Under the pieces are notes generated by a model, which worked only from the letters and a program-made list of their open reading frames with translations, was not told where the DNA came from and searched no databases. 64,000 bases of DNA from the NCBI RefSeq assembly GCF_001644645.1, contig NZ_CP011390.1:5597501-5661500 (forward strand), in the 5' to 3' direction. The stretch comes from Flavisolibacter tropicus (GTDB lineage Bacteria; Bacteroidota; Bacteroidia; Chitinophagales; Chitinophagaceae). The position numbers and the translations under genes are program-made. This document shows, one piece after another, positions 127 through 18,310 of the stretch; the first letter of the stretch is position 1; each line of letters opens with the position of its first letter.

Positions 127-275
127 ATAATATCCTGGAAAGGCATCCATTTTCATATGTTGTTGGTTGTGAGCAAATTGGCTGAAGATGCCTATTCTAG
201 TGAATTTTGTTGCGAAAAAGTAGGTCTGGAAAGCTATATCTTTGTTTTAATTGTTAATATTTGAAACGAGTCCCA

Positions 276-1802
276 ATGATCACTGCTAACTGCTATCGAA
301 GGTCAATCCTTCTCTTTGTTCTACAGGTATTTGCGATCCAGGCCATTTTCGCACAACAACGGCCGCCAGTTACAAAAGTTCTGGAAAATGCACTCGGTGC
401 TGTGGTTACAGTTGGTGTTTTTGAAACCGATATGGCCAAAAAGACCTTAGGCTTCCGAGGCAATCCAGTTGAACAAGCCTATGCTAAAATGCTTGATCTG
501 AGTGGCGCATCTGGTTCTGGTTCTGGCTTTTTTATCCGCTATAATAACCGTGCACTGGTAATTACTAATGCCCACGTTATTGAGCAAGCTGCTGATAAAG
601 AAGGTAGTATTTATGTATATACCATCAACCGTTCTAAGTACGAAGCCAAAATAGTAGGTGGCGATTCATTTTATGATCTGGCCGTATTGGAATTGGTTGA
701 TAAACCAGGCGATGAAGTATCGTTCTTAGAAATTCGACAGGCTCCTGCTCTTGTAGGAGAACCCGTTTATGCGGTAGGTAACCCCCTTGGAGAATATCCG
801 TATTCAGTTTCTGAAGGGATCATTAGTGCCAAAAACCGTGTGCGGGGTGGTCTTACCGGAAAGTTTGGCTTTTTGCAAACAACGGCCACTGTAATCTGGG
901 GTAACAGCGGCGGACCATTGCTGGATGCAGAGGGAAAGGTGCTAGGTGTTAATTCACAGATTGCGTTCGCTGACCGTGGCGGTAGCTCTATCTGGCAACC
1001 ACAGATCAATTTCGCGCTGGAAGCTGGAATAACCTATCGTTTGATCAATGATATCCTTACCAACAATGGCGTAGTAGGCCGGTCTTATCTTGGAATTGAG
1101 CTCATGCAACGTAAGCTACCTTTTCAACCAGGAACAAAAGAATACACTTACTATTCTCAAAAGTTCACACCCGATACCTATCCGGTTCTGAATAAAGTGT
1201 TGGATGGTGCACCAGCTGCTGCTTTAAAACCCTATATAGGCCAGCAGGTGGTAAAAGTGAATAGTGAGCCAACACGCAATATTGAAGAAGTTTTAGGGGA
1301 GTTGGAAAAAAGTAAACCCAATCAAAAAATCGAATTTACTTTCCAAAAAGATGGACAAAAAACACAGGTTTCAGTAAACGCCGGTGCTTTGAGTTCATCT
1401 GGTTCTGCCAGCTTGGGTAAGTGGTTTATGCAAATGGCAGGTGCCAGGTATGTTCAGGATGAGAACATGCTCTCGTTGAACTTTACCGGCGGCGAACAGA
1501 ATGGGCAGTCTTTAGACTTTGCTGCAGCCCGTGGCACGCAGGCTGCTGGTCAGGAAGCTCCTCTTACTGGAGAGTGGCTGGTACTGGGTGTAGGTATTTA
1601 TCGCGAAAACTACGAGTCCCTATGGCGTATTAATGACATTGCCGATGTGGGTACAGCTGCACGACTTACAGGTACTTCTGGTAATATTGATATGGTTTTA
1701 TTTAAAAAAGGCGGCCAGCCTGGTGTTGCCGAGAACTATAAAATCAAGAAAATTTCTATATCAGGAACGAGTTACATTCAGCAACAAACGCTTTGGTATT
1801 AA
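276..1802 (+). CDS. Secreted trypsin-like serine protease with PDZ-like region (HtrA type)
   Basis: Seen: an N-terminal signal peptide (hydrophobic stretch ending near AIFAQ), then a trypsin-like fold with all three catalytic residues. Counting from the ATG at 276, these are His100 in ITNAHV, Asp134 in FYDLAVLEL and Ser211 in WGNSGGPLL. A PDZ-like segment follows (about residues 265-370, around YLGIEL). The last 130 residues belong to no family I recognise. An in-frame TTG at 261 is an alternative start, but the ATG puts the signal peptide nearer the N-terminus. Known: HtrA/DegP-like proteases act in the periplasm on misfolded or regulated substrates. Inferred: its position beside a sigma factor and secreted caspases suggests a shared envelope-stress role. 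It is probably its own transcription unit, because a hairpin follows it. Confidence 0.88.
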   Translation: MITANCYRRSILLFVLQVFAIQAIFAQQRPPVTKVLENALGAVVTVGVFETDMAKKTLGFRGNPVEQAYAKMLDLSGASGSGSGFFIRYNNRALVITNAHVIEQAADKEGSIYVYTINRSKYEAKIVGGDSFYDLAVLELVDKPGDEVSFLEIRQAPALVGEPVYAVGNPLGEYPYSVSEGIISAKNRVRGGLTGKFGFLQTTATVIWGNSGGPLLDAEGKVLGVNSQIAFADRGGSSIWQPQINFALEAGITYRLINDILTNNGVVGRSYLGIELMQRKLPFQPGTKEYTYYSQKFTPDTYPVLNKVLDGAPAAALKPYIGQQVVKVNSEPTRNIEEVLGELEKSKPNQKIEFTFQKDGQKTQVSVNAGALSSSGSASLGKWFMQMAGARYVQDENMLSLNFTGGEQNGQSLDFAAARGTQAAGQEAPLTGEWLVLGVGIYRENYESLWRINDIADVGTAARLTGTSGNIDMVLFKKGGQPGVAENYKIKKISISGTSYIQQQTLWY

Positions 1803-1877
1803 TTATCAGTTGTTGAACTAAAAAATCAAATGCTTAATAACAGCCTGTTTCAATGAAGAAGACAGGATAGCAATAAG

Positions 1878-1928
1878 GACAGAGAAATAAAAGGTAAGAA
1901 TTGCTTCCTTGAGTTTCTCTGTCTTTTT
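1878..1928 (+). terminator. Probable intrinsic terminator after the protease gene
   Basis: A 10-base stem (GACAGAGAAA at 1878-1887 pairing with TTTCTCTGTC at 1914-1923) is followed at once by TTTTT. The 26-base loop holds a further small AAGG/CCTT pairing. It separates the protease gene from the sigma-factor gene. Confidence 0.55.
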
Positions 1929-1972
1929 GATTTTAGCAGAACATCCTCAAACTAAAATGATAATTTACAAGC

Positions 1973-2614
1973 ATGCAGTGCAATGACATTCATGATCCGG
2001 AATTGCTGGTAACCTTTTTCAGGTCGGAAGATGAATCCACCTTAAGTAGAACATTACGTTGCTTCCGCCACCTGTTCTTTTCTGATTTTAAAGGCTTTTC
2101 CTATAACAAGATCTTTTCCTATAAGCAGTATGCAAGTGATAAAGCCAGCGAGTTAACCGAGGATGGCTTTAATTACGGACTCACCCAATTTTATTTATTT
2201 ATTCGCAAAAACGGCTTTTCTAACCAAGGTGCTACTGTAAAATCACTATTCTTTACTTTTTGCCTGAATCAATTAAGAGCTTTAACCAAAGCAAAAGAAC
2301 GTTACAATGCCTGGCAGATCAGTAGCGATCCCAGCAAATTGGTGGAAAACGAAACCGGAGCGCAGCCTTATAATTATAAATCGGTACAGGAAGAACTGCA
2401 TGAATTGGACCAGGAGGCTGAATTATTCCGCAAAGCTTTAGAAGAATTGGGTGAACGTGGACGTAACCTGATTATATGGCGAAAAGTAGACCGGTTAGAC
2501 AATGAAGAAATTGCAAGACGTACAGGTCTGGATCCGGTTAGTATAAACAATGAGGTATACCGTGCTTTTATTAAGTTGAAGAAAATTATCCAGGTACTTC
2601 AAATTCAAAACTAA
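1973..2614 (+). CDS. RNA polymerase sigma-70/ECF-like sigma factor
   Basis: A 213-residue protein. Its C-terminal part (about residues 150-205) has the region-4 helix-turn-helix pattern: a helical lead-in with GERGRNLIIW, then LDNEEIARRTGLDPVSINN and a basic helix. The N-terminal half is aromatic-rich and only loosely like region 2, so it is a divergent member. It carries no export signal and should act in the cytoplasm. The next gene starts 5 bases after its stop and encodes a membrane-anchored protein, the usual sigma/anti-sigma arrangement. Inferred: it controls the downstream caspase and CHAT genes, perhaps including its own operon. Confidence 0.75.
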   Translation: MQCNDIHDPELLVTFFRSEDESTLSRTLRCFRHLFFSDFKGFSYNKIFSYKQYASDKASELTEDGFNYGLTQFYLFIRKNGFSNQGATVKSLFFTFCLNQLRALTKAKERYNAWQISSDPSKLVENETGAQPYNYKSVQEELHELDQEAELFRKALEELGERGRNLIIWRKVDRLDNEEIARRTGLDPVSINNEVYRAFIKLKKIIQVLQIQN

Positions 2615-2619
2615 AAGCA

Positions 2620-3660
2620 ATGGGAATTACAGAACAACAATACGAAGACATACAGAAGTACCTGGATGGACGAATGCAGCCGGAAGAGCTGGTAGCCTTT
2701 GAGCAGCAATTGCAAACTGACCCCTTGTTAAAGGAGTTTCTGCTTTTTGAACAGGAACTACGTTTAAACCTGGATTATATTCAGGATAATGCAGGCCCTA
2801 AATCTTCTTCAGACTTAGCGGAAAGCAATTCTCAATTTGATGATCCTGCGTTTATCCTCAATCTGATTAAACAAGGCAATAAGAATGAAGCCGGCGATAA
2901 AACAAACAGTAGTCCATCCCCGCTACATGTAGTTTCTAAAGAGGAGTCTCCCGTAGTTCGAGAGAATACCTTGCATTCTTTCCCTTTTGCAAGATATATG
3001 GCAGCAGCGGCTTGTTTAATATTTCTGGCAATGGGAATTTTATGGTTGGCTTCCAATAACAATGAGCCACAAACCGTAGCAAAAACAAATGGAAGGGAAA
3101 AGATAGATTTGACAGGCGACTCCAAAAAGGAAACGTCTACGGCTTCTACTACAAGCGATACTTCTAAAAGCACAGATCCGTTTATAGCAAAAGCTAACAC
3201 AGCAGCTTTATTTAAAAAATATTATAAGCGTGAGGAAGTTCCTGCACAAATCCCCGAGCAGCTAGCCGACGCACTGAATGATTATAGTGCAAAGGATTAT
3301 GTAACCATTCAACAGATCGATCTGGAAAACCTTCCTAAAAGCAGGGGCGCAGAAGCTGTCGAAGGTCCTCAATATGTTAAGGAGATAGGGACTTACTTTA
3401 AAGGCCTTTCTTACATAGAAACAGGAAACCACCTTCAAGCAATTACCAAGTTGCAATGGATAGCAGATAGTGCAACAAATAGTCAGCTAAAGAGTAGTGC
3501 GCAATGGTATTTGGCGCTTAGCTATCTGAAAATCGGCAACACAGGAAAGGCTATAACGCTGTTGACAGCTGTTTCGAAAAATGTTAAGGCAGTTCCATTT
3601 AAAAGAGATGCAGAAGAAATATTGGTGGCTCTGAAAGGAGCGAAGAAGCAGGCTGAATAA
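2620..3660 (+). CDS. Membrane-anchored anti-sigma-like protein with periplasmic TPR region
   Basis: 346 residues in three parts. A short cytoplasmic helical region (about 1-60) begins with YEDIQKYLDGRM, the form common in Bacteroidota anti-sigma factors. One transmembrane helix lies near residues 126-144 (MAAAACLIFLAMGILW). The periplasmic part holds helical TPR-like pairs near 250-340 (WYLALSYLKIGNTGKAITLL). The gene starts 5 bases after the sigma-factor stop, so the two are surely cotranscribed. Inferred: the N-terminal part holds the sigma factor and the periplasmic TPR senses a partner in the envelope. No zinc-binding HxxxCxxC is present, so the anti-sigma role is a context call. Confidence 0.7.
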   Translation: MGITEQQYEDIQKYLDGRMQPEELVAFEQQLQTDPLLKEFLLFEQELRLNLDYIQDNAGPKSSSDLAESNSQFDDPAFILNLIKQGNKNEAGDKTNSSPSPLHVVSKEESPVVRENTLHSFPFARYMAAAACLIFLAMGILWLASNNNEPQTVAKTNGREKIDLTGDSKKETSTASTTSDTSKSTDPFIAKANTAALFKKYYKREEVPAQIPEQLADALNDYSAKDYVTIQQIDLENLPKSRGAEAVEGPQYVKEIGTYFKGLSYIETGNHLQAITKLQWIADSATNSQLKSSAQWYLALSYLKIGNTGKAITLLTAVSKNVKAVPFKRDAEEILVALKGAKKQAE

Positions 3661-3734
3661 TAAATCGGTAAACCCATTTTGTAATTAATAGTTTTAGCTG
3701 GAAACGCTTTTTGCACAAATAGTAAAGGGAGCTT

Positions 3735-5390
3735 ATGAGAAAAAGTTTACTTTTTATTCTTTCAATGTTAGGGTTTGCCTTCGGCCATGCGCAGCAAACA
3801 AGTAGAGGTACGCAGGTTATTAAAACGAGCCATTCTGAGGGAAAGACCTACGGACTGGTGATCGGTATTTCGGATTACGCTGAACTACCCAAGTTAAATT
3901 TTGCCGATAAAGATGCAGCTGAGTTCTATAGATATTTAATACAAGCAGTTCCTACCCAGGATACCGGTAACCTGGTACTGCTTTTAAATAGGGATGCGAC
4001 AAGGGATGCGATTGCCGACAGGCTTTATGATCTTACAGAAAAGGTAAAAGCAGGCGATAAGGTTTATGTTTATTTCAGCGGCCATGGTGATATGGAGCAA
4101 TTGATACAAACCGACAATTGCCTGTTGCTATTAAGCAACAGCCCGGTTAAAAATTATTTGCGCAAGTCGAACGCTTTTTTGGATATCAATCTGTTTCGGG
4201 AATTTTTCCGCTATTGGAGTGACAAAAATGTCAGGACGATTTTTGTTAGTGATGCTTGCCACTCGGGTGGACTTACAGGAGGGGAAAGTGGCCGGAAAAA
4301 TACGGTCCTTAGTCTAACACAAACATGGGCTAAGGAAATAAAACTTTTATCCTGCCAGGCAAACGAAGTGTCACTTGAAGGCCCGCAGTGGGGTGGAGGC
4401 AGGGGCCTGTTTTCCTATTATTTTATATTGGGTTTGAAGGGCCTTGCGGATAAGGACAATAATGCCGAAGTAAGCCTGTTTGAGTTGGATAATTTTTTAA
4501 GGGATCATGTAAGTGCTTCTTCCCGTCAATCGCAAATTCCAGTAGTACAGGGTGATTTTAGGGCCGTTGTTAGTAATGTAACCGCGCCTTTGCTTACTGC
4601 TGCTAAAAAGGAAATAAGTAAAACCTCCTCTGATGAATTTAAAGCTATTGCTTTAAGAGGTGGCGATGGCTCTTTGCTTTCTTTACTGAAGGATTCTGCC
4701 TCAAAAAGCCTTTATTTAGCGTATAAAAACAAACTAGCCGCCAACCAATTATTGCAACCAGAAAATAGTTCTGCGTACTACTATTTTCAGCAGCTTAACA
4801 AGGATGATGTAAATGAGCTTGTACGAAAAAATATGTGCATCGAGTTGATTGAGGCGTTGCAAAAACCTTTTGACAATCTCTTGGACTATGTGTATGAAGA
4901 TGCTTATGAAAAGCTGGGGTTTTATGAAAAGATAGAAATTGAAAAACAACTTACTGTAGCTCTTTCACTTTGCGGTCAGAACAGTTCTATTAGCAAAAAG
5001 ATCAAGTCTAAGCTACTTTTTTTACAGGCTTGTGAATTGTCATCACAAATGGAGAGAGGTGTTGCTAATTACAGAAACAATGAACTGATGGAACAGGGGA
5101 TAAGCTTATTGTCACAGGCAATAAAAATTGACCCTTTAAGTCCCAACTTGTATATGCGTCTTGGGGATTACTATCTCTATTCCAACCAGCTAAATGAAGC
5201 GATAAAGGCATACCGCCAATACCAGCAATTACTACCGAATGATGAACATTCGTACAACAAGTTGGGAATGGCTTATGTGGCAAAGAAAGAATATGATCTG
5301 GCTATTGAAGCATTAAGAAAAGCCATTCGTATCAATCCAAACTATTGGCAAGCCACCGAGAACCTGAGGTTGGTGATGGCGACAAAATGA
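3735..5390 (+). CDS. Secreted caspase-family (C14) protease with C-terminal TPR
   Basis: 551 residues. A signal peptide ends near GHAQ at residue 20. The caspase-like domain spans about 37-260: first strand YGLVIGISDYAE, catalytic His117 in YFSGHGD, catalytic Cys175 in VSDACHSGG. The dyad is intact. The C-terminal 100 residues hold TPR repeats (RLGDYYLYSNQLNEAIKAY; KLGMAYVAKKEYDLAIEAL). A good Shine-Dalgarno-like AAGGGAG lies just upstream of the ATG. Known: bacterial C14 proteases of the metacaspase/orthocaspase type usually cut after Arg or Lys. Inferred: it acts in the periplasm or outside the cell, with TPRs to hold partners. The gene lies 74 bases after the anti-sigma-like gene in the same direction. 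Confidence 0.88.
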   Translation: MRKSLLFILSMLGFAFGHAQQTSRGTQVIKTSHSEGKTYGLVIGISDYAELPKLNFADKDAAEFYRYLIQAVPTQDTGNLVLLLNRDATRDAIADRLYDLTEKVKAGDKVYVYFSGHGDMEQLIQTDNCLLLLSNSPVKNYLRKSNAFLDINLFREFFRYWSDKNVRTIFVSDACHSGGLTGGESGRKNTVLSLTQTWAKEIKLLSCQANEVSLEGPQWGGGRGLFSYYFILGLKGLADKDNNAEVSLFELDNFLRDHVSASSRQSQIPVVQGDFRAVVSNVTAPLLTAAKKEISKTSSDEFKAIALRGGDGSLLSLLKDSASKSLYLAYKNKLAANQLLQPENSSAYYYFQQLNKDDVNELVRKNMCIELIEALQKPFDNLLDYVYEDAYEKLGFYEKIEIEKQLTVALSLCGQNSSISKKIKSKLLFLQACELSSQMERGVANYRNNELMEQGISLLSQAIKIDPLSPNLYMRLGDYYLYSNQLNEAIKAYRQYQQLLPNDEHSYNKLGMAYVAKKEYDLAIEALRKAIRINPNYWQATENLRLVMATK

Positions 5391-5472
5391 TAATAGGAAA
5401 AACTTTAGAGCAGGATTTTATTTCAATTTAAATGTTTTCTTTTTCAGTATTGTACTTACAAATAAGCTATTA

Positions 5473-8400
5473 ATGAAGTTTCTGATTACGTTGAATGTTG
5501 TCTTTTTACTTGCTCTGATTTTTCCGAGTAAAAGAACCGCATGCCAGGAACTTTACAGGATAGCAAAGGACCACTATTATGCAATAGAAAGTGACTCCAC
5601 CAAAAAAGATTCGACGCTATTTTATGCTCATGAAACCAGGAAATATGCAGAGCAATTCTTTGGGCAATCAAGCATACAGTATTTAGCAAGCTTAAACCGG
5701 GTAGCTACTACACTGTTCTATAAGTTTAATCAATATGATTCTGCAAAGCAGGTTTGGCTAAATATTGTGGCAAAGATCCAGTCAACACCAGATAGTAATT
5801 ATGAAATACAATCGGATATTTATTGGAACCTTTATGTAAATTCTTATTTAGAGAAAGACAAAAGTCTGGATAGTGCCTTCTATTTTGCCAATAAGTATTT
5901 GTCTTACCAACAACAAGTAATAAATAAGCCGGTAGATCTCATTAATGAAATAATTGCAGTCGCTTATAATTTTGACATTAATAAAGAAGACAGTGCTACT
6001 GCACTCTTTTATAGCCGCGCCTTAGAATTGCGAAAGGAAATATGGGGTGCCAAAAATGCGGAGATCACCAAGCAGTTAGATTCATTGATTCAAACTGTCT
6101 TTTCTGAAACTTCATATGATTTTAGAAATGATCTGTACAAGGTTGGTGACACTACTTATACTTATTATCAATTGGACTCAATTGGCAGGTATTATAGCAG
6201 GTCCGATGCCTCCAATGAGGAATTTCAGTCGGCATTATCTTATTTGATCAGAGCGAAGGATCAAGCCATACTAGATTATTCCGACAGTAGTCATGAATTC
6301 TATAAGAGCTTGCGATTATTGGCTAGCTATTTCAATGAGTTTCCGGAAGCAAAATCAATATCCATTTATTGCCTCAATACAATTCTAAATGATTTAGAAA
6401 GTAGAGGCAAAATGAAATCTATTGATTATGCAGATGCCTTGTTTGACCTAGCTGAACTCAAACATGAACAACAATATGAAGAAGCCATAGCTATTCTTGA
6501 AAAAGTGTTGCCTATTTACCAAAGTCTATATAGCCAAAAAAGCGAGCCCTACATTAACTGTTTAACCAGTTTGTCTTGGTGGTATGCAAAGAGTAAAGAA
6601 GATCAGCAGCGGGAACATTTAGCTTTTCAGAGTATGACTCGTGCAGTTGAATTGGCCAAAAGCACATGCGGAATAAATACCATTTCTTATTTAGAGGTAA
6701 AAAAGGACTTGGGAGCTTTGTATAAGTATGATGGCAGGTTAGATGAAGCAGAAAAAACGTTGTTAGAAGTATATAAAACCTACAATGAAAAATTTCATCC
6801 AGCTCCAACCGATGAATTCTTAGAAGAGCTATGTGTTCAACTACATTGGGTTTATGGGTACAAATATGAACTTTCTAAATGGCTTTTTTGGTTAAATAAA
6901 TGCGAGGAGATCAAAATAGCAAAAGGTGATACACTGAGCTACGATTATTTGAATATTCTGGACAATATTATATCTGCCAACCAGTATATTAATAACTGGG
7001 CCCAGGCTAAAAAGTATTTGGATAAACAAGAAGCAGTACTTAATTATTTGAATGATACTTCGTCTGTAGAGTATGCTTTTTCTCTTATGGCGAAAAAGGA
7101 TTATTATATACATACAAAGGAATATGACAAATGTGAATCCCTATTTCAAAAAATAATAAGCATACAACAAGAAAGATTTGAAAAATATAATGACAACAAT
7201 TCACATAGCGGGCTGGCCTCTGCCTACATGGATTATGCAGACTTCAATTTTCTGCAGGGCAATTATGATAAAGCATATGAGCTTATTCAACCTTATTTAA
7301 CGTATCTAAGAGCATGGAATTATGATTCAGCTGCCGGGGCAACTGACGCCTATGAAAGATTAGGCGCCTATTTTTTGTACAAAAAACAAGCAGATAGTGC
7401 CTTTCATTATTATGACCTGGCCATTCAGTGTCAAAAGAATTCTTTTTTTGAACGCTCTGAAATATATTTTAAAGCGCAATCCAATAAAGCCTTAGCCTTT
7501 TGGCATTTTAATCAAAGTGAAAAAGCCGAAGAACTTCTAGCCAGTGCTTGCGAGAGTATTAAAGAGCAAATGATTAAAGGAATGGCAGGCTTTAGTGAGA
7601 AGGAAAAACAAACCTATACCACTACACTAAACGAGGTTCTCAATAAATATCACAACCTACATCATACGATCTATCAGGCTGAGCCTGTCACTAACAAGCG
7701 CGCCTATAATTTTATTTTACAGTCAAAGGGACTGCTTTTGAATACTTCTCTTTTTGTAGAGAAGCAAATTAAAGCCTCCGCTGATAAACGTTTGCAAAAC
7801 ACCTATGCCGACTTAAAGCAAACGAAAACAATGCTTGCGAAGGTGTATCAACTGGGCGAAGCGCAAAGCGATGGTATTTCCCTAGATAGGCTGGAAACAA
7901 GAGCAGCGCGCCTTGAAAAGGCCCTTTCTGAACAATCGAATGTATTGGCTGATTTTCAAAAAGCCAACCAGGTTTCTTTTAGCGAGGTGCAGGCTGGTTT
8001 ACAGCCAGGAGAAGCGGCTATTGAATTTGTCAGCTTTCCCTATTTCAATGGAACAGATTTCACTGATTCCTTGTTGTATGCCGCATATATTGTCAAAGCG
8101 GGTTTAGATACCCCAGTATATGTACCGTTAAATGGCGTGGCAGGAATGAATGCTTATGTTCAAAATCAACAATCAAAGAGCAGAGGAGGTGTTGTAATAA
8201 AATCGCAGGAACGGAAAGAAACATTTAAAGAACTATACCAATACATCTGGCAACCACTAACTCCGTTTTTGGAAGGTGTTAAAAAAGTTAGCCTGGCGCC
8301 TGATGGCATTTTGAATAGTGTTGCTTTTGCTGCCTTACAGGATACTGGTGGACAATATTTGGTAAACAAATATGATCTCAAGATACTGTTAAGTACCAGA

Positions 8401-9204
8401 GATATAGCACAGAAAAACAAAACCCAACAAAGCCAGGCCGCTAGTGCGTTATTGTTTGGAGGCGCGAAATATGATTTAAAGCCGATACCAATTAAAGATG
8501 CCATCAATGGTCACCGGTCATTGCCTGATGATTTAAACGGTACACAGGGTTGGAATTATTTACCTGGCACCTTGTCGGAAGCTGTATCTGTGGGGCAAAT
8601 TTTAAAGAAACAGGGAGGTAAGGTCGTTACCATAGTAGGAGAAGCTGCTTCTGAGCAACAATTTAAAACAATGAGTGTTCGTGAAAAGCCATCTATCATT
8701 CACATTGCAACACACGGTTTCTACTTTCCTGTAACAACGGAGTCTGGCGTAAGCGGTTTGATACAAAAAACATATTCAGCTTCGGATAATCCCTTACTGC
8801 GTACAGGCTTATTGTTTTCCGGAGCCAATTGGGCATGGCAGGGCAAGTTGGTTAAGGCCAATCAGGAGGATGGAATATTAACAGCCTACGAGCTTTCCAA
8901 TCTTGACCTAAGTGCTACAAAGCTGATGGTTCTTTCGGCCTGTGAAACGGGAGTAGGGGAGATACAAAACGGAGAAGGGGTTTATGGGTTGCAGCGGGCT
9001 ATACGCCAGGCTGGTGTTTCCAAAATGATTGTGAGTCTTTGGCCTGTTCCGGATAAGGAAACAGCCGAAATGATGCAGTATTTTTATTTGGAGTTATCTA
9101 AAGAAAAGGAAATCCGAACTGCTTTTAAAAAGGCACAGATGAACATGCTGAAAAAATATCCTGGGGAGCCATCACTTTGGGCGGGCTTTACCTTAATAGA
9201 ATAA
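5473..9204 (+). CDS. Very large secreted TPR-CHAT domain protein
   Basis: 1243 residues. A signal peptide (MKFLITLNVVFLLALIF...) is followed by about 700 residues of TPR-like helical repeats, a coiled linker near 760-830, and a C-terminal CHAT domain (about 900-1243). CHAT motifs are complete: HIATHGF with His1081, and LSACETG with Cys1157, followed by the usual EGVYGLQRAI and VSLWPVPD. Known: CHAT domains are caspase-fold proteases, named for caspase HetF associated with TPRs, and include the gRAMP-linked TPR-CHAT protease. Those are cytoplasmic, whereas this one has an export signal. Inferred: TPRs bind a ligand or partner and gate the protease. The gene lies 82 bases after the caspase gene. 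Confidence 0.88.
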   Translation: MKFLITLNVVFLLALIFPSKRTACQELYRIAKDHYYAIESDSTKKDSTLFYAHETRKYAEQFFGQSSIQYLASLNRVATTLFYKFNQYDSAKQVWLNIVAKIQSTPDSNYEIQSDIYWNLYVNSYLEKDKSLDSAFYFANKYLSYQQQVINKPVDLINEIIAVAYNFDINKEDSATALFYSRALELRKEIWGAKNAEITKQLDSLIQTVFSETSYDFRNDLYKVGDTTYTYYQLDSIGRYYSRSDASNEEFQSALSYLIRAKDQAILDYSDSSHEFYKSLRLLASYFNEFPEAKSISIYCLNTILNDLESRGKMKSIDYADALFDLAELKHEQQYEEAIAILEKVLPIYQSLYSQKSEPYINCLTSLSWWYAKSKEDQQREHLAFQSMTRAVELAKSTCGINTISYLEVKKDLGALYKYDGRLDEAEKTLLEVYKTYNEKFHPAPTDEFLEELCVQLHWVYGYKYELSKWLFWLNKCEEIKIAKGDTLSYDYLNILDNIISANQYINNWAQAKKYLDKQEAVLNYLNDTSSVEYAFSLMAKKDYYIHTKEYDKCESLFQKIISIQQERFEKYNDNNSHSGLASAYMDYADFNFLQGNYDKAYELIQPYLTYLRAWNYDSAAGATDAYERLGAYFLYKKQADSAFHYYDLAIQCQKNSFFERSEIYFKAQSNKALAFWHFNQSEKAEELLASACESIKEQMIKGMAGFSEKEKQTYTTTLNEVLNKYHNLHHTIYQAEPVTNKRAYNFILQSKGLLLNTSLFVEKQIKASADKRLQNTYADLKQTKTMLAKVYQLGEAQSDGISLDRLETRAARLEKALSEQSNVLADFQKANQVSFSEVQAGLQPGEAAIEFVSFPYFNGTDFTDSLLYAAYIVKAGLDTPVYVPLNGVAGMNAYVQNQQSKSRGGVVIKSQERKETFKELYQYIWQPLTPFLEGVKKVSLAPDGILNSVAFAALQDTGGQYLVNKYDLKILLSTRDIAQKNKTQQSQAASALLFGGAKYDLKPIPIKDAINGHRSLPDDLNGTQGWNYLPGTLSEAVSVGQILKKQGGKVVTIVGEAASEQQFKTMSVREKPSIIHIATHGFYFPVTTESGVSGLIQKTYSASDNPLLRTGLLFSGANWAWQGKLVKANQEDGILTAYELSNLDLSATKLMVLSACETGVGEIQNGEGVYGLQRAIRQAGVSKMIVSLWPVPDKETAEMMQYFYLELSKEKEIRTAFKKAQMNMLKKYPGEPSLWAGFTLIE

Positions 9205-9392
9205 CAAAGTTTAGCAAACGAAAAGATGTTCTTTCTATGGGTGAATCCATCCTAACGTGTATCGGTAAGTTCATAAACGTTAAAAGTTTGGGGCGAAATG
9301 GCTTTAAATGGGCGACTGGCTTGACTTTCATGAGTAGGGATTACATTCATATTTGTTATTTTTTTACATTTGCCAGCAACTAAAACTAGCTT

Positions 9393-9494
9393 ATGAGCCG
9401 CTCTGTACTGCTAACCATATCTCTCTGTTTAGCAGCATCTAACTTGAGTAAAGCCCAATCTAGTTGTTTGCCAGCCTATTGTAACATCATTTGA
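9393..9494 (+). CDS. Possible 33-residue secreted microprotein or gene remnant
   Basis: ATG at 9393 opens a 33-codon frame ending TGA. The product looks like an almost bare signal peptide: SVLLTISLCLAASNLSKAQ, then 12 residues with two cysteines (SSCLPAYCNII). It sits in the 357-base gap between the CHAT gene and the second caspase gene. It may be a true microprotein or the stump of a lost secreted protein. Only the signal-peptide shape supports it. Nothing else was seen in this gap. Confidence 0.3.
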   Translation: MSRSVLLTISLCLAASNLSKAQSSCLPAYCNII

Positions 9495-9561
9495 CTATTT
9501 AAACAGAAACTCTTTAATAAATCACTTTTCCAAATCGAGTCCGTCACTATAAAAAAAATAC

Positions 9562-11778
9562 ATGAAAAAGCTATCCATCCTTCTTTTCAGCTTCACGTTT
9601 GGGTTAACCGCGTTTTCCCAAACGTCAAGAGCTTTGATCATTGGTATAGATACGTATAAGCCTGAAAATGAAGCGGCTGTTAATACGGAGAGAATGTCTT
9701 GGCCTAACCTGGACGGATGTGTCAACGATGCCTCCTCTATGAAGGACCTGGTGACGGCTAAATATGCTTTTCCTGCAGCTAATATCGTAACGCTATATAA
9801 TGACAAGGCAAACCGGGAAAATATCATTAACCAGCTTAAAAAATTGATTAGTGAGTCCAAAAAGGGGGATGTGGTATTTATTTATTACGCTGGCCATGGC
9901 AGCCAGATGTATAACTCCCTTTCCAAAGAGGCGGATAAAAAAGATGAAACGATTGTTCCTTCCGATGCCTATAAAGGGGCTGCTGATATCCGTGATAAAG
10001 AACTGGCGGCCTATTTCAACCAATTAGTTGATAAAGGTGTTGTTCTGACAGTGATTTTTGACAGTTGCCACAGTGGCTCGGTTGGGCGTGGACTACTTAC
10101 TGATCCTCCAAAAGTTCGTTTTATTGAAGAAAATACGCAGGATGCAAAAGATGCTTCTGAGCCTATAAGACCAGAGTCTCGCGGCGCTATGATCTTTTCG
10201 GCTGCACAAGATTTTGAATTTGCAAAAGAGCAACGCGATGAGAACAACATTCCTCACGGCGCCTTCACTGTAGCTTTATTGAAAGCCTTACAGCAACAAT
10301 CTCCTGATGCTTCCGTATCAAGTATCTATTCCAGTGTAACAGCCATTATGAAATATTATGGAAAGACACAGGAACCAGTTCTGGCCGCTAATGAGGCTCG
10401 CAGAGCAGGTACTTTATTTGGCTTAGCAAAAGGGGCGGTAAAAAACAAGCTGACCATAGCTTCCAGCAAAATAGAGGCTGAGGGTGTAGAACTTCAGGGT
10501 GGTTTTGCATTTGGATTAGCAGAAGGTGTTAAGCTGGCATCACTGAATTCAACAGATACGCTTGAGATCATACAAATGCGTGGTGCTAATAAAAGTCTTG
10601 CTAAGGTATTGACCGGCGTACCGAAAAATATTAAGCCAGGTACATTATTTGAAGTGATCAACTGGGCCTCCAGCAAAGCCCCGGCTTTAAAAGTCTATGT
10701 ACCTGCAAATGGAGTGAATGAAGCACAACTTCAAGGATTTGTAAAAAATGTTGGAACCAATAAAAGTCTGAAACTAGTTGGAGATATTACAAAGGAGATA
10801 CCTAATACTATCTATACATACGACGGAAGTCAATGGTATGCTTCTGATGCTAAAGCTGGAAAAAAGGCTGTGGGAGCAATGCCTACAAATGCAGCCTTCA
10901 AATCTTCGTCTAGCAGTGCTTCCAGCGCTTTTATCAACCTGCCACCTTCTGCCCAATTGGTCAAGGCATTTGAAAACAAATTCAAAAGTTTTGACAACAT
11001 TGTAGTGGTTAATCGTCCAGAAGAATCACAATATACATTGGTAGGTAGTCTCTTAGATGGTAACAAGCTAGGGTATGCGTTGGTCAAAAGCCAGGTTACT
11101 GTTCAAGATACAACTGAAAGTCTCCCTGCACGTACGGACTTTGTTGTGTATGATGGAAGCGAGGCGTCTGCTACAGTCGTTGCGGAAAAACTGTCTGAGT
11201 ACGCTTTCCGTATTGCCAAAATCAGAGACTGGCTAATGCTTTCAGCACCAAGCGGTGGACAAAACAAGTTTCCTTTTAAATTAGGTTTCAGACATTTTAC
11301 CTCTCAACAGCCTTTAACAACTGATAAAGTAAAGGTTAACGATACACTTTCCATTTATTTCGAAGCCGAAAAGGATTATTCAGAATGGAACCGAAAGAAA
11401 AGATATATATATGTATTTAATATTGACAGCAAGGGCAAAATGAGCCTGTTGTATCCTAGCCTGGAAAGTGGAAACGTAGAAAATCGCATGCCTGCTACAA
11501 ACGATGACGGGAACCCTGTAGAAAAGACGCACCTGGCTGACATCCTAATTACTCCGCCTGCTGGAGCTGATAACTATTTCCTCCTGGCCTCGGAAGAAGC
11601 GATCAGCAACTTAAGTGCATTTGAGCAGGAAGGCGTATTAAGTAGAGGAAACGATAATACAAAGGGTAAAGGCAATCCACTGGAGTCGCTATTGTTTACC
11701 GGCTCAAAAACACGTAACAAGGTTATAACACCGGTGAACTGGTCAATATTTAAACTTGTTCTTCGTACTGCCGAATAA
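9562..11778 (+). CDS. Secreted metacaspase-like protease with C-terminal DUF4384
   Basis: 738 residues. A signal peptide ends near TAFSQ (residue 20). The metacaspase domain (about 22-285) shows ALIIGIDTY, catalytic His112 in YYAGHGSQ and Cys169 in IFDSCHSGS, the classic type I metacaspase spacing. The C-terminal part (about 600-720) matches DUF4384: YIYVFNIDSKGKMSLLYPS and ITPPAGADNYFLLAS. The middle is unassigned and may be a linker or carbohydrate/protein-binding region. Known: DUF4384 often accompanies secreted caspases. It begins a second block of genes (CHASE2, secreted TPR protein, lipoprotein) with very tight spacing, which suggests one transcript. Confidence 0.88.
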   Translation: MKKLSILLFSFTFGLTAFSQTSRALIIGIDTYKPENEAAVNTERMSWPNLDGCVNDASSMKDLVTAKYAFPAANIVTLYNDKANRENIINQLKKLISESKKGDVVFIYYAGHGSQMYNSLSKEADKKDETIVPSDAYKGAADIRDKELAAYFNQLVDKGVVLTVIFDSCHSGSVGRGLLTDPPKVRFIEENTQDAKDASEPIRPESRGAMIFSAAQDFEFAKEQRDENNIPHGAFTVALLKALQQQSPDASVSSIYSSVTAIMKYYGKTQEPVLAANEARRAGTLFGLAKGAVKNKLTIASSKIEAEGVELQGGFAFGLAEGVKLASLNSTDTLEIIQMRGANKSLAKVLTGVPKNIKPGTLFEVINWASSKAPALKVYVPANGVNEAQLQGFVKNVGTNKSLKLVGDITKEIPNTIYTYDGSQWYASDAKAGKKAVGAMPTNAAFKSSSSSASSAFINLPPSAQLVKAFENKFKSFDNIVVVNRPEESQYTLVGSLLDGNKLGYALVKSQVTVQDTTESLPARTDFVVYDGSEASATVVAEKLSEYAFRIAKIRDWLMLSAPSGGQNKFPFKLGFRHFTSQQPLTTDKVKVNDTLSIYFEAEKDYSEWNRKKRYIYVFNIDSKGKMSLLYPSLESGNVENRMPATNDDGNPVEKTHLADILITPPAGADNYFLLASEEAISNLSAFEQEGVLSRGNDNTKGKGNPLESLLFTGSKTRNKVITPVNWSIFKLVLRTAE

Positions 11779-11811
11779 GTCATATCTCGTACCACTGATT
11801 AAAAAGCATTG

Positions 11812-12993
11812 ATGTTTAACTATCTATTCAAAAAAGACACACTGCTGGCTACTATAGCAGTGTTTTTTATAATGGGCCTATTATCACTGTTGCCCATTAA
11901 TACACATGTATTGGATCCTATTAAGTTTGCTTTGCAGGACTTTGACTATAACGATCTGGCCTATTCGCGCATGGGTAAGAACAGAGAAACCCCTATCGAT
12001 ACCAATATCGTAATCGTAAATATTGGAAATGCCGGTAGGCAAGAAATTGCTGCCATGATCCAAAAGGTAAATGAGCAACACCCCAAAGTAATAGGAGTGG
12101 ACGTCTTATTCAACGCTCCAAAAGGAGAGGCAGAAGATTCCTTACTAAAAGCGCAGATTACCAATAATCCTAAGGTTGTTTTGGCATATAATCTACATTC
12201 AAATGGAGAGGCAATCTCTCATGAAGGATTTTTATATGGTCAGGCACCAAATAAAGGTTTTGCCAATTTTATAGGCGAAGAAGGTGGTGTGATCAGACAC
12301 TTTGCACCTACTATGAATCAAGGATCAAATGATTATTCCTTCTTTGCTGCTTCCATTGCAAAAGTTGCCGACCCACAAGGGTATCAAGAACTGAAAAGCC
12401 GCCATCAACCCATAGAGATTATTAATTATACCCACACTTCTGAAAAGTTTGTAGTTGTTGATGGCCAAGAGTTGTTAAATGGAGAGATCAATAGTGTTTC
12501 ATTAGCCAATAAAGTAGTCTTATTAGGATTCGTTTCTTCTGAAGAGGGTAGTGTGCTTGACAGGCATTTTACACCCATGAATAAGAATTCCTTTGGAAAA
12601 ACCTTACCGGATATGGAAGGGGTTTTTGTACATGCCAATATCATTCGTATGATCCTGGATAAGGACTACATTCGTAAAGTGCCGGCATGGATTACCTGGA
12701 CACTTGCCTTTTTACTATGCTGGCTGCACATGAGTCTTTTCATCAAGTATTACCTGGAAAGACATCTTTGGTTCCACCTGGTGGCTAAAACCGCACAACT
12801 ATTTTCGGCTATACTTTTTGTTTACCTGGCTTTATTGTTCTTTTATAAGTTCGATACAAAGGTTAACCTTACGCCTTCATTAGTGGCCATTATACTGGCT
12901 GTTGATGTCCTTTATTTTTATGAAGCCTTCTGTACATGGTTGAATAAAAAGTATCATTATAAATCGGTATTTGCTCATGCTAAACATCATTAA
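11812..12993 (+). CDS. CHASE2-domain membrane sensor protein
   Basis: 393 residues from the ATG at 11812 (a TTG 3 bases upstream is less likely). One N-terminal membrane helix (LLATIAVFFIMGLLSLLP) precedes an extracytoplasmic CHASE2 domain (about 40-290; markers FALQDFDYNDLAYSR, IVNIG, VIGVDVLF, ANIIRMIL). Three membrane helices follow at the C-terminus (about 297-385). Known: CHASE2 is an extracellular sensing domain, normally joined to a kinase, cyclase or diguanylate cyclase. Here no output domain follows, so the protein must signal through a partner. It lies 33 bases after the DUF4384 caspase, and the next ATG abuts its stop codon. Confidence 0.88.
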   Translation: MFNYLFKKDTLLATIAVFFIMGLLSLLPINTHVLDPIKFALQDFDYNDLAYSRMGKNRETPIDTNIVIVNIGNAGRQEIAAMIQKVNEQHPKVIGVDVLFNAPKGEAEDSLLKAQITNNPKVVLAYNLHSNGEAISHEGFLYGQAPNKGFANFIGEEGGVIRHFAPTMNQGSNDYSFFAASIAKVADPQGYQELKSRHQPIEIINYTHTSEKFVVVDGQELLNGEINSVSLANKVVLLGFVSSEEGSVLDRHFTPMNKNSFGKTLPDMEGVFVHANIIRMILDKDYIRKVPAWITWTLAFLLCWLHMSLFIKYYLERHLWFHLVAKTAQLFSAILFVYLALLFFYKFDTKVNLTPSLVAIILAVDVLYFYEAFCTWLNKKYHYKSVFAHAKHH

Positions 12994-13863
12994 ATGAAAA
13001 ACATACTTCTTTGGATATTTCTCTTCGCTTCAATGATCGTGCACGCACAGGATGCTGAGTTTATCGTCTATTTTACCAAGGGTAAGGTTCTGAAAACAGT
13101 AAACGGGAGCAAAGCGCTTCAAAAAGGTGATCGCCTGGGCAGAGCTGATGTGTTACAAGTGCCGGACAAGGCTGAAGTGGTGCTGATCTGCAAAAGCTAC
13201 AATACCGTGCGCATTAAGGCCAAAGGCCGTTATACTGTACAAAGCTTGTTATCTCAATGCAACCAAGCGAAAACTTCGTTTTCAAGTTCCTATTTCCATT
13301 ACATATGGGATGAACTAACGCACGTTCATGGCTCACCGGAGAAAGATCCTTTGAAATATATGCACAATACAGGTGCCGTAAGCAGGGGCTGCGCTATGGT
13401 GCAAACAAGCCTACCGGTTGATACGGTACATTATGTTTCCGGCCAATTGCCTATTTACTTCAAAACAGCGCATAGGCGGCCACACGTTAGTGTATACAAC
13501 GATATTCAGGAAGGCGCTTTATTAGTAAAGGAAACGTTGGGTAACGATCCTATACAAATGGACTGGTTAATGACAAAACTGAAAGGTGAGGGAGAGTATT
13601 ACTGGCAAATAACGGATGCCGATGGTACCAGTTGTGAGCGCAACTACTTACGTGTATGGAATGGCCGTGAATACCAGGCGGCTGTTGCCCAATTGTTAGC
13701 CTCTGTTATTACTACAGAGCCTGCCGAAACGGCTTATATGAAAGGTTATTTGCTGGAAGAGAAACATTTTTTAGCAGAAGCCTTTAAATATTATCAGCAA
13801 GCTGCAAAACTGAATTCAAACAACACGATCTATAAAAAAACATTACTGAGATTTTATGAATAA
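12994..13863 (+). CDS. Secreted protein of unknown function with C-terminal TPR-like helices
   Basis: 289 residues. A signal peptide ends near MIVHAQ. An SH3/FecR-like beta-rich segment follows (FTKGKVLKTVNG, ALQKGDRLGRADVLQV, AEVVLICKSYNTVRIKAKGRY). The last 45 residues form a TPR-like hairpin (AYMKGYLLEEKHFLAEAFKYYQQ). The start abuts the CHASE2 stop with no gap, so the two are translationally linked. Its size, signal peptide and helical tail resemble the DUF928 proteins found with CHASE2 and CHAT genes in cyanobacteria, but this is an analogy of layout; homology is not shown. Inferred role: periplasmic partner of the CHASE2 sensor. Confidence 0.7.
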   Translation: MKNILLWIFLFASMIVHAQDAEFIVYFTKGKVLKTVNGSKALQKGDRLGRADVLQVPDKAEVVLICKSYNTVRIKAKGRYTVQSLLSQCNQAKTSFSSSYFHYIWDELTHVHGSPEKDPLKYMHNTGAVSRGCAMVQTSLPVDTVHYVSGQLPIYFKTAHRRPHVSVYNDIQEGALLVKETLGNDPIQMDWLMTKLKGEGEYYWQITDADGTSCERNYLRVWNGREYQAAVAQLLASVITTEPAETAYMKGYLLEEKHFLAEAFKYYQQAAKLNSNNTIYKKTLLRFYE

Positions 13864-14794
13864 GCATATCTGTTCCCTGGCCACCATTTCATTGATGGCC
13901 TTTTCATTGGCTGGTTGTATTGGTTCCAAATTGGGGTCAGCCAATAACAAAGAAAAAGTGCAAATGAATATCAAAGAGAAAGTTGATGTGATTGACTATG
14001 CACTTCTTAAAGAGCAAACGGTGCCTAGCTTTGCTAGCAGAGGCCAGTCTAGAGGACCAATGACCGGGCTTACACTAGGGGCGGTATCACTGGCTACCAA
14101 TGCGGTGAAACAAATGATAGCTAAGGATAAAAAGAAATATACGGCCGAATATGATTATGCCTTAACTGACCTATACTTCTATGACCAGCTATCAACGGAA
14201 AATCCATTTGACCCCATTGGTATGCAGTTCAGTGGCTTCCGCCTGGTGCGCACCTTTCAAAATAAAGGAGTAACCGATACGGCTATGATTGCCGATTTTG
14301 AGTTGGATGCTACTAACCCTTATGAGATCATCAACAATTCCATCTTCCGTCTTAAGCTAAAAAGCCTGCAGTTGAATTATGCTAAAGCAAAAGTGCCAGC
14401 GAATAATAAGCTACTGAATATGGATTTTGAGATCAGCTTTCATACTTCTTATGTAAACGGACAGGGCGTTCTATTTAAGAACATTGAGTTGGGTAAGTTT
14501 TACTTTTTCTTACGTAAAGCACCCTTAGATAAAAATGAGGAGGGGTATACTGCCTATTTTGAGAAGTTAAAAGGAAAAAAGCTGGAAGGACAAAGCTTTA
14601 TCGTACCTCGTTCTTTTGGTTATCACATGTCTAATTCCAACACGGTGGAGCCCGCTTATAGCCAAGGCGCTTATACGATCCAGGTTAAAGTGAAGGAAAG
14701 TTCTAAAAACACTTTCGTAAACCAGATGATCATTGATAATTCAAATAAGCTGGTAGATGCACTGGGCGATCAGTTAAAGAAGAAGCTGAAGTAA
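13856..14794 (+). CDS. Lipoprotein of unknown function
   Basis: 312 residues starting 8 bases inside the previous gene. A lipobox (SLAGC) at the end of the signal sequence predicts a membrane-anchored lipoprotein. After it comes a short disordered stretch with the double motif ASRGQSRG, then a region rich in beta strands (TAEYDYALTDLYFYDQL) and an amphipathic C-terminus. No family was recognised. Overlap with the preceding gene shows it belongs to the CHASE2/caspase transcript. The SRG motifs recur in neighbouring secreted proteins (see findings). Confidence 0.7.
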   Translation: MNKHICSLATISLMAFSLAGCIGSKLGSANNKEKVQMNIKEKVDVIDYALLKEQTVPSFASRGQSRGPMTGLTLGAVSLATNAVKQMIAKDKKKYTAEYDYALTDLYFYDQLSTENPFDPIGMQFSGFRLVRTFQNKGVTDTAMIADFELDATNPYEIINNSIFRLKLKSLQLNYAKAKVPANNKLLNMDFEISFHTSYVNGQGVLFKNIELGKFYFFLRKAPLDKNEEGYTAYFEKLKGKKLEGQSFIVPRSFGYHMSNSNTVEPAYSQGAYTIQVKVKESSKNTFVNQMIIDNSNKLVDALGDQLKKKLK

Positions 14795-15108: not shown

Positions 15109-15528
15109 TTAATCTGCAGTAGAATACTTTAAGTTAAAGATATAGCTAGATCTGCAGTCTCCTGAAGCAGACCATTCTGTAGTACCGCCTGTAGAAACAC
15201 AATAAATAGTAGTGTAGCCACTTCCTACAGTAACTGTGCCTTTACCATACGCGTCTACTGTGCCTCTGTAGGTTCCGTCTACATAAACTTTAACATACAA
15301 ACCAGTGTAGTTATCGAATGTTACAGAACAAGATGCACCTCTGCTCTTTTCTACTGGATTATCAGTAGTAGGAACATCGGATTTAATGTTTGGATTAGCA
15401 CCGCGGCTAGCTTCCACTTTCTTTCCGATAACATCAATTTTTTTAACTCCTTTAGATTGTGCCTGGCTGCTTAATGCGGTGAAAAGTACGGCAAGAAGCA
15501 TGAAAACTGATAATGTAACTTTCTTCAT
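15109..15528 (-). CDS. Small secreted protein with two SRGA motifs
   Basis: 139 residues from the ATG at 15528. A longer frame runs upstream, but this start fits the promoter and the signal peptide (LLAVLFTALSSQAQ). After a basic segment (KGVKKIDVIGKK) come two copies of SRGA (residues 41-44 and 62-65), spaced by a flexible acidic/Pro stretch. A beta-rich C-terminal domain follows with Cys67, Cys110 and Cys125, which may form a disulfide (motifs GLYVKVYVDGTYRGT, WSASGDC). No family was recognised. It has its own strong promoter, which suggests high expression. Inferred: it could be a target of the neighbouring Arg-specific caspases. Confidence 0.8.
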   Translation of the reverse strand: MKKVTLSVFMLLAVLFTALSSQAQSKGVKKIDVIGKKVEASRGANPNIKSDVPTTDNPVEKSRGASCSVTFDNYTGLYVKVYVDGTYRGTVDAYGKGTVTVGSGYTTIYCVSTGGTTEWSASGDCRSSYIFNLKYSTAD

Positions 15529-15548
15529 AAGCTTGATTTGATTAAGCG

Positions 15549-15580
15549 CAAATGTATCCGTGCAGTGTGATAAAAACAAT
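15549..15580 (-). promoter_or_regulatory. Bacteroidota-type promoter for the small secreted protein
   Basis: On the minus strand, TACATTTG (15549-15556) matches the TAnnTTTG element and ATTG (15577-15580) lies 20 bases upstream, the normal distance for the -33 TTG. Transcription would begin a few bases before the ATG at 15528, giving a very short leader. Confidence 0.75.
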
Positions 15581-15765
15581 ATTTCTAAGTAGTATTTTTT
15601 GAACATCCTTAATGAAATTGCTTTAAATCATTGTCAGTGAATAACATCTCTTTTTTGTGGTTAATAAAATGTCGTGTAATTATTACGGTTTACGCATCAA
15701 ATATGACATAGTCATTTATATAATAAAATACCTAGAGGAGGGTATTTTCTATTTCTGTTCATTTA

Positions 15766-17712: not shown

Positions 17713-18310
17713 CCACCCTATGTTTCTTGACGGGGTAAGGAATGCCCTTTCCGCATTTGAAGATATTGAGCTGGTAGCTTTGTGTACAGACGGAGATGCC
17801 GTACTGGACTCGGTTAAAAAAGTGCCTGTAGATGTGGCTGTCCTCGACATTAATATGCCCTTGCAAAATGGTATAGCTCTGGCAAAGATCATCCGGAATG
17901 AATATTCGCATATCAAGGTAGTGTTTCTCACTATGTACCATCCTTCAACCTTGGGGAATGAAGGCATAAATAATTTTGCATTAGGTTACGTACTAAAGAA
18001 TTCCGGTAGCCAGGTATTATACGCAGCTATACAATCAGCGTTTAAAGGGCAACGCTATACAGACCCCAAATTAAAAGATGTGTTGCCAAACGAAAAACAT
18101 GAGGTATTTCCCGATGCTATTAAGCTTAGTCAAAGGGAAAAAGAGATCATCAAGCTGATTATAGAAGGAAAGGGTAGTAAAGAAATAGCGGACCTTCTTT
18201 TTTTAAGTGAACTAACGATTAGTACCCACCGTAAAAATATCAATCGTAAGTTGGGGGTGAGCAATCTTGCCACTCTTATGATCCGCGTGAGAGGGCTGGA
18301 CCTTGATTAA
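17678..18310 (+). CDS. LuxR/NarL-family response regulator
   Basis: 210 residues. The receiver domain (about 5-120) shows the acidic pair in LLADDHP, the phospho-acceptor Asp in VAVLDINMP, Thr in FLTMYHP and Lys in GYVLKNSG. The LuxR helix-turn-helix (about 148-205) shows LSQREKEIIKLIIEGKGSKE and LTISTHRKNINRKL. The start lies within the 3' end of the kinase gene, and translation is probably coupled. It should bind DNA in the cytoplasm when phosphorylated by the upstream kinase. Confidence 0.93.
   Translation: MKQQIRVLLADDHPMFLDGVRNALSAFEDIELVALCTDGDAVLDSVKKVPVDVAVLDINMPLQNGIALAKIIRNEYSHIKVVFLTMYHPSTLGNEGINNFALGYVLKNSGSQVLYAAIQSAFKGQRYTDPKLKDVLPNEKHEVFPDAIKLSQREKEIIKLIIEGKGSKEIADLLFLSELTISTHRKNINRKLGVSNLATLMIRVRGLDLD

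Follow-up and report, generated by a model that had tools for sequence, protein, structure and literature searches.

An apparently exported metacaspase and a small Arg-Gly protein as a candidate protease-substrate pair in a caspase/CHASE2 island of Flavisolibacter tropicus

Introduction

To our knowledge, the natural substrates identified so far for bacterial metacaspases are few. Metacaspases cut themselves at the linker between p20 and p10. Orthocaspases cleave after positively charged residues (PMC6426788). Here we describe an island of caspase-fold protease genes in a 64,000-nucleotide stretch of the Flavisolibacter tropicus genome (contig NZ_CP011390.1; hereafter the window), in which an apparently exported metacaspase (g6) is accompanied by a small exported protein (g10) that we propose as its substrate; g1 to g10 are our gene labels, and L and G numbers designate loci and genomes. 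The g6 protein has the GCxND, GHG and DxCHSG motifs of the metacaspases and orthocaspases (MEROPS C14B; yeast Mca1, TbMCA2, AtMC4, AtMC9), and a basic P1 residue is predicted for it as well. Unlike them, it is apparently exported, has a DUF4384-like C-terminal half with paired Arg-Gly sites, and is genetically tied to an HtrA-like protease (g1) and to g10.

Several described systems resemble parts of this arrangement. The Arabidopsis metacaspase AtMC4 reportedly cuts PROPEP1 after Arg and frees a short peptide from this precursor, which is the logic that we propose for g10, although the g10 system is bacterial, exported and has no known receptor. The Arg-gingipain RgpB is exported and comes from a Bacteroidota. 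It belongs to clan CD, takes Arg at P1 and processes itself after two Arg residues (PMC4357240), but it differs in family, C25 versus C14 for g6 by sequence. The Microcystis caspase homologue MaOC1 is reported to cut the product of a neighbouring antitoxin gene (PMC7935541), as we propose for g6 and g10, but it belongs to a toxin-antitoxin module rather than acting on an exported precursor, and its cut sites could not be determined in that study (PMC7935541). In Myxococcus-type operons, a metacaspase and a sigma-70 factor share one predicted operon (PMC3501461), much as a metacaspase and a sigma factor share one cluster here; the examples given there belong to Deltaproteobacteria, Ralstonia and Fibrobacter, and the section on these operons does not mention a small Arg-Gly partner (PMC3501461). 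The component families of the island are already known, but in a limited search of the literature, at the level of titles and abstract openings, we found no earlier description of a small Arg-Gly protein dedicated to an exported metacaspase.

Results

A family of small exported proteins with two near-invariant Arg-Gly sites

A profile of g7, the CHASE2 protein of the island, retrieved 15 named loci and matched in 38 of 395 genomes drawn from the class, which we take to be Bacteroidia, and gene order was read at 52 CHASE2 loci (the window, the 15 named loci and 36 more, with a few genomes contributing two). Clustering of the unassigned neighbours at these loci yielded one family, present at 10 of the 52 and represented in the window by an open reading frame (ORF) on the minus strand (15109-15606). 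This gene, g10, sits just outside the span covered by a preliminary description of this DNA and was overlooked there. The members of the family are small exported proteins with repeated [S/T/A]RG motifs.

In an alignment of 99 sequences from a protein search, the window's own included, the first site of g10 has Arg at R42 in 98 sequences and Gly at G43 in all 99, while the second has Arg at R63 in 97 and Gly at G64 in 93. Both sites fall in a linker N-terminal to the conserved domain. The stretch between them holds a conserved GANPNIKxDxPTxD core, and the dozen or so residues ahead of the first site are far less conserved. The fold of g10, as judged by sequence, had no convincing match among solved structures (best E 0.63), and Pfam returned only CUB_2, below threshold.

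The metacaspase carries sites that match those of g10

Residues 49-175 of g6 match solved metacaspases (Metacaspase-1, -9 and -4 and MCA2; best E 2e-15) as well as the uncharacterised chain GSU0716. We aligned 25 g6-like metacaspases, counting positions by eye, and compared them with five control caspases, four from a genome without g10 (G003) and one from L079. HG and CHSG are kept in all 25 proteins, and so are two acidic residues of the S1 type, one being the CxND Asp and the other an Asp two positions ahead of the catalytic Cys, both of which are also present in 5/5 controls. In our own reading of the alignment, these two would correspond to Asp95 and Asp211 of TbMCA2, in which Cys92, Asp95, Ser156 and Asp211 are the proposed S1 residues (PMC4357240). 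Cleavage by g6 after a basic P1 residue is predicted.

The near-invariant candidate cut sites of g10 have matching sites in the metacaspase itself. The p20/p10 linker of g6 reads PESRGA, and a basic residue is found in this linker in 23 of the 25 proteins (21 Arg, 2 Lys), with Arg in 4/5 controls. After the catalytic Cys, Arg is present in all 25 proteins and Arg-Gly in 24, compared to Arg-Gly in none of the five controls. The C-terminal half has paired sites (SRG at residues 694-696, then NPLE, then R718); R718 is one of three invariant columns among 24 C-terminal halves with a mean column identity of 30%, and the five controls lack the C-terminal stretch in the alignment.

Linkage and co-occurrence of g10, the metacaspase and HtrA

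A search of the class draw with g10 alone, which scored the best 10 candidates per genome, found g10 in 16 of the 395 genomes (10 genera), at 18 places (L103-L118, the window and L059); the survey of places used stop-to-stop frames, and in L017 and L018 longer ORFs overlap g10. A g6-like metacaspase half lies within 2 kb of g10 at 10 of these 18 places, either next door (L059, L106, L107, L108, L115) or with HtrA in between (L110, L113, L116, L117, L118). In the window the distance is 3.3 kb, at L109 only another caspase is near, and at six of the 18 places none is in view. An HtrA of the g1 type stands beside the metacaspase and/or g10 at L110, L113 and L116-L122, while L106-L108 and L115 have the metacaspase and g10 with no HtrA in view. 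At L122 (G324, a genome with no CHASE2 match), the metacaspase has an HtrA gene next to it that is convergent with the gene for a 1210-residue CHAT protein.

The distribution across genomes is that expected of a dedicated substrate. The g6-like C-terminal half was found in 26 of the 395 genomes (17 genera), and these include all 16 genomes with g10 (P 4e-22, counted by genome, uncorrected for relatedness and with a profile made partly from those genomes). Independently of this profile, PF00656 caspases are present in 16/16 g10 genomes versus 152/395 overall (P 1.4e-7, likewise uncorrected for relatedness). Among 58 relatives, g10 is present in four, all of them among the five with CHASE2 (P 1.2e-5), and in the class draw CHASE2 is found in 7 of the 16 g10 genomes versus 38/395 (P 2.7e-4). 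For the six g10 places with no caspase in view, which belong to five genomes, the metacaspase is encoded elsewhere. For G273, G155, G388 and G324, a single PF00656 match was listed, an HtrA-metacaspase pair with 5-6 sites; in G384, none of the three listed caspases, WD40-like by eye, has sites, and a contig-end fragment of a g6-like C-terminal half has three Arg-Gly sites.

Arg-Gly motifs are enriched in particular families

SRG occurs in g10, g6, g9, g8, g5, g4 and g3, which also escaped the preliminary description. Together the island proteins and g10 have 11 SRG in 4733 residues, compared to 3 in 10501 residues of ORFs from the remainder of the window; nine are left when the two sites of g10 itself are subtracted, and 2000 shuffles of the island proteins gave a mean of 0.72 and a maximum of 5.

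We also compared the rate of [STA]RG per 1000 residues among protein families at 81 loci (1183 ORFs, with export assigned by a simple rule of our own). The rate is 11.45 for g10 (29 proteins), 4.59 for caspases of 450-799 residues (34, controls included), 4.42 for g9 (11) and 1.68 for g8 (44), against a background of 0.46 for unrelated exported proteins (156) and 0.45 for the rest (806); other caspases have 1.10 (29). Since the rates are low for CHAT (0.67; 8 proteins), HtrA (0.57; 14) and CHASE2 (0.28; 52), not all island members carry the Arg-Gly mark. The CHAT protein g5 was considered as a substrate and set aside, its two SRG sites being unremarkable at the rate of its group. Of the caspases with 450 residues or more, 18 are shorter than 800 residues and no more than two genes from HtrA or g10; these 18 have 90 sites versus 7.0 expected from shuffles, while the other 41, the window's g6 among them, have 48 versus 21.0. 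The Arg-Gly that directly follows the signal peptide of g4 has a counterpart in only a few of the caspases compared, and we dropped it as a general trait.

CHASE2 and g8 form a module associated with caspase-fold proteases

In 42 of the 52 CHASE2 loci, g8 lies beside CHASE2; the ten loci without it are L021 (incomplete), L057, L066, L067, L070, L081, L082, L084, L089 and L091. Gene order recurs in relatives: g6 to g9 are found together at seven other loci (L012, L014, L016, L017, L018, L019 and, rearranged, L075), with g1 added at four of them (L017, L018, L019, L075). CHASE2-g8 goes with caspase-fold proteases, because 37 of the 38 CHASE2 genomes carry a PF00656 caspase or a CHAT protein. A listed PF00656 match is present in 23 of the 38 (class background 152/395), and a CHAT protein in 14 of the 15 without one (background 79/237). 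The exception with neither protease is G392, whose locus (L057) also lacks g8.

No residue of the g8 family is as well conserved as the Arg of its motif, Arg131, which is present in 43 of 44 members after exclusion of one false member of 1162 residues. In g9, paired RG sites are found in all eight relatives that span the region, and a ninth row (L016|7) is a fragment without it.

Some CHASE2 loci are built differently. At L068, L069, L072, L073 and L074, CHASE2 and g8 are divergent rather than tandem, with a large CHAT protein nearby at L068, L073 and L074. At the Pedobacter loci L011, L013, L015 and L021, one or two copies of g10 are divergent from CHASE2, 107-664 bases apart, and at three of these four no caspase is in view.

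Discussion

A proposed cleavage code

We think it rather likely that the exported metacaspase g6 reads an [S/T/A]-Arg-Gly cleavage code, by which it processes itself and cuts g10 and probably also g9 and g8. Gene content, linkage, co-occurrence, the conservation and enrichment of the motif and the acidic S1 residues are observed, whereas export, the cleavages and their order, the trigger and the output are inferred from them. In the scheme that we propose, g6 would cut after the Arg and would mature by self-cutting at the p20/p10 linker, at the paired C-terminal sites and perhaps in the loop after the catalytic Cys. Two cuts in g10 would yield a 21-residue peptide (GANPNIKxDxPTxD...KSR) and a mature domain; g9 would probably be freed by a cut that separates the lipid anchor from the remainder of the protein; g8 would be cut, or held, at its Arg, and g4 would offer a site directly after its signal peptide. 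The HtrA protein g1 would act as a partner and not as a substrate. The CHASE2-g8 pair may act in the membrane as an input or docking module and work with any caspase-fold protease that the genome has, whether metacaspase, other caspase or CHAT. Candidate outputs are the freed domain or peptide of g10, the released g9 and, in this genome, the putative anti-sigma factor g3, which might be cut at KSRGA.

If g6 acts in this way, the enzyme, its cut motif and its substrate are seemingly named by the genome itself in one island, and the function of a non-cytoplasmic bacterial caspase could be tested with two purified proteins. It would be a caspase of the bacterial cell envelope, and its substrate could be deduced straight from genome sequence; caspase-fold proteolysis would extend from cell death and immunity to processing or signalling at the envelope of Bacteroidota, and CHASE2 proteins without an output domain would be linked to caspase-fold proteases. 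An extension that we regard as possible but doubtful is that a bacterial peptide signal is made from g10. Metacaspase cuts at Arg42 and Arg63 would then free the 21-residue peptide from this precursor, to be sensed at the envelope by CHASE2-g8 or by a neighbouring 7TM histidine kinase (15766-17712). Such a signal would be a bacterial counterpart of the peptide hormones released by plant metacaspases.

Several observations weigh against g6 as a protease dedicated to Arg-Gly sites in g10, g9 and g8. No caspase is in view at 10 of 31 g10 places; six of these (five genomes) have the metacaspase elsewhere, and four are at Pedobacter loci, where it was not sought. Conversely, 10 of the 26 genomes with the metacaspase half lack g10, and a repeat search in which all candidates were scored again found none, although nine of these ten retain Arg-Gly in the metacaspase (the weak hit in G003 has none). 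The search with A3, our profile of the g6-like C-terminal half, favours g10 genomes because such genomes in the class draw supplied 14 of the 24 rows of the profile. The PF00656 genome search omitted g4 although g4 scores 64.8 bits in Pfam, and therefore gives minimum counts. Both the Arg of the linker and the acidic S1 pair are ordinary metacaspase features, because the controls carry them too. The motif was picked after it had been seen in g10 and was then tested in the other proteins. One g10 subfamily (L014, L019, L022, L115) has the second site only, the first being lost, and [STAK]RG is absent from a more distant relative of g9 in L117. In g8, Gly follows Arg131 in a minority of rows (20/45, with Ser in 13/45), and the Arg is retained even where CHAT alone is near.

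Alternative explanations

The Arg-Gly sites could be cut by another exported protease (g1, a gingipain-like C25 enzyme or a trypsin-like enzyme encoded elsewhere), the metacaspase being merely one of the substrates. The position of g1 between g10 and the metacaspase at five loci (L110, L113, L116, L117, L118) fits this explanation, as does the fact that g1 is not itself enriched in sites. We nonetheless consider it improbable: the active site of g1, TVIWGNSGG, has no Asp at the S1 place of trypsin (judged by eye), HtrA relatives usually prefer a non-basic P1, acidic S1 residues are found in the metacaspase, and at L106-L108 and L115 the metacaspase and g10 occur with no HtrA in view. It is similarly improbable, in our estimate, that the motif is uncut and instead is a binding or structural element of proteins that assemble with the metacaspase. 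The RG straight after the catalytic Cys (24/25) may indeed be structural, and the Arg of g8 is kept almost throughout, also at loci that have no metacaspase close by, but the sites of g10 and g9 are paired and lie in linkers, and one site of the metacaspase coincides with the p20/p10 linker, a known place of self-cutting.

The preliminary description had instead proposed an envelope cascade in which CHASE2 or TPR proteins sense, the caspases cut, and the anti-sigma factor releases the sigma factor; in full, the caspases would cut g3, and the freed g2 would drive the island. An apparent envelope location and a recurring gene order survive from this proposal, but the sigma pair as its core does not. 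Neither g2 nor g3 hit anything in the 51 other CHASE2 loci, and a search of 5.8 billion proteins with g2 returned two matches, g2 itself and one 80% relative; these searches started from one sequence and are limited for fast-evolving extracytoplasmic function (ECF) sigma factors. The pair thus looks local, and within the limits of such single-sequence searches we reject the sigma factor as a core part and find no conservation of the sigma/anti-sigma pair with the island. It is true that g2 and g3 lie within the cluster and that the single-pass g3 has KSRGA, as g10 does, after its transmembrane (TM) segment, in the presumed periplasmic part, but this single KSRGA offers a weak link to the sigma factor, and one motif in 346 residues is within chance. 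A different output could be the 7TM histidine kinase past g10, with relatives in three other CHASE2 loci, and we regard the sigma cascade as very unlikely.

Features of the island and its surroundings

The nine genes of the preliminary description were all recovered on the plus strand, at the span it gave (276 to 14,794), by ORF and Pfam analysis (Table 1). The gaps between consecutive genes from g1 to g9 are 170, 5, 74, 82, 357, 30, 0 and -8 bases. The His/Cys dyads claimed for all three caspase-fold proteins can be seen by eye (GHGD/DACHSG in g4, ATHG/SACETG in g5, GHGS/DSCHSG in g6). By eye, g1, g4, g5, g6 and g8 have a signal peptide and g9 has the lipobox LAGC, while a 19-residue hydropathy scan (threshold 1.6) flagged the N-termini of g1, g5, g9 and g10 and not those of g4, g6 and g8. 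The assignment of g6 as a metacaspase-DUF4384 protein holds for the C14 domain, while DUF4384 scores 25.3, under its cut-off of 27.0. The CHASE2 protein g7 has a single hydrophobic segment at the N-terminal end, several at the C-terminal end and no further domain, in agreement with the lack of an output domain noted before.

Table 1. Coordinates of island genes and candidate cut sites in the window
Feature	Coordinates	Strand	Basis or remark
g1, HtrA/DegP-like protease of the trypsin fold, exported, with weak PDZ; ATG at 276	261..1802	+	Pfam Trypsin_2 107 bits
g2, ECF-type sigma-70 factor	1973..2614	+	Pfam Sigma70_r4_2 32.9 bits; taken as accessory
g3, putative anti-sigma, single TM (about 127-145), TPR-like C-terminal part	2620..3660	+	Domain/hydropathy scan
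g3 SRG (in K-S-R-G-A) past TM segment, possible cut site	3340..3348	+	Single example
g4, exported caspase (C14) with TPR repeats	3735..5390	+	Pfam C14 64.8 bits
g4 SRG, residues 23-25, directly past signal peptide	3801-3809	+	Motif scan
g5, exported TPR-CHAT protease	5473..9204	+	Pfam CHAT 210 bits
g6, exported metacaspase (His112, Cys169), DUF4384-like C-terminal half	9562..11778	+	Pfam C14 98.7 bits; solved-metacaspase matches
g6 SRG in p20/p10 linker (PESRGA), likely self-processing site	10177..10185	+	Alignment
g6 C-terminal paired sites (SRG 694-696 ... NPLE ... R718)	11641..11715	+	C-terminal half alignment
g7, CHASE2 membrane protein without output domain	11809..12993	+	Pfam CHASE2 95.3 bits
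g8, exported, FecR-like N-terminal part (by eye), weak TPR; usual g7 partner	12994..13863	+	Locus comparison
g8 SRG (GAVSRG), Arg131	13381..13389	+	Family alignment
g9, lipoprotein	13856..14794	+	Lipobox LAGC by eye
g9 SRGQSRG double site, between lipid anchor and remainder	14036..14056	+	Relatives' alignment
g10, small exported protein, proposed substrate	15109..15528	-	ORF from 15606; likely ATG at 15528
g10 first Arg-Gly site (ASRG, R42)	15400..15408	-	Alignment of 99
g10 second Arg-Gly site (KSRG, R63)	15337..15345	-	Alignment of 99

At least five PF00656 places, g6 included, were found by whole-genome search on the 5.94-Mb contig of the window. When the nine proteins were scanned with PADLOC, g4 and g6 matched the defence caspase model PDLC02987 across the caspase domain only, and g1 was the only other match, through its protease domain. 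An anti-phage defence system is less likely because the PADLOC matches are limited to caspase and protease domains. No relative of g7 was found in the viral contigs searched. The promoter pattern TTTG-N-TAnnTTTG, the Bacteroidota consensus, has no match in the island and one in the window (59490), with a chance mean of 4.41.

Just past g10 lie genes for a 7TMR-DISM histidine kinase (648 residues; 15766-17712) and a LuxR-type response regulator (210 residues), together 15766-18310, a pair that is a possible receiver of the output. Related kinases are found in the CHASE2 loci L017, L018 and L022, and related regulators in L017 and L022. Farther on, the minus strand encodes a TonB-dependent-type outer membrane beta-barrel protein with a CarboxypepD_reg domain (18718-21084). 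Two short minus-strand ORFs (30309-30617 and 33989-34303; 102 and 104 residues from the first Met) contain SRGFG[YF]V, which resembles the RNP1 motif of RRM RNA-binding proteins, and these two account for two of the three SRG matches in the remainder of the window.

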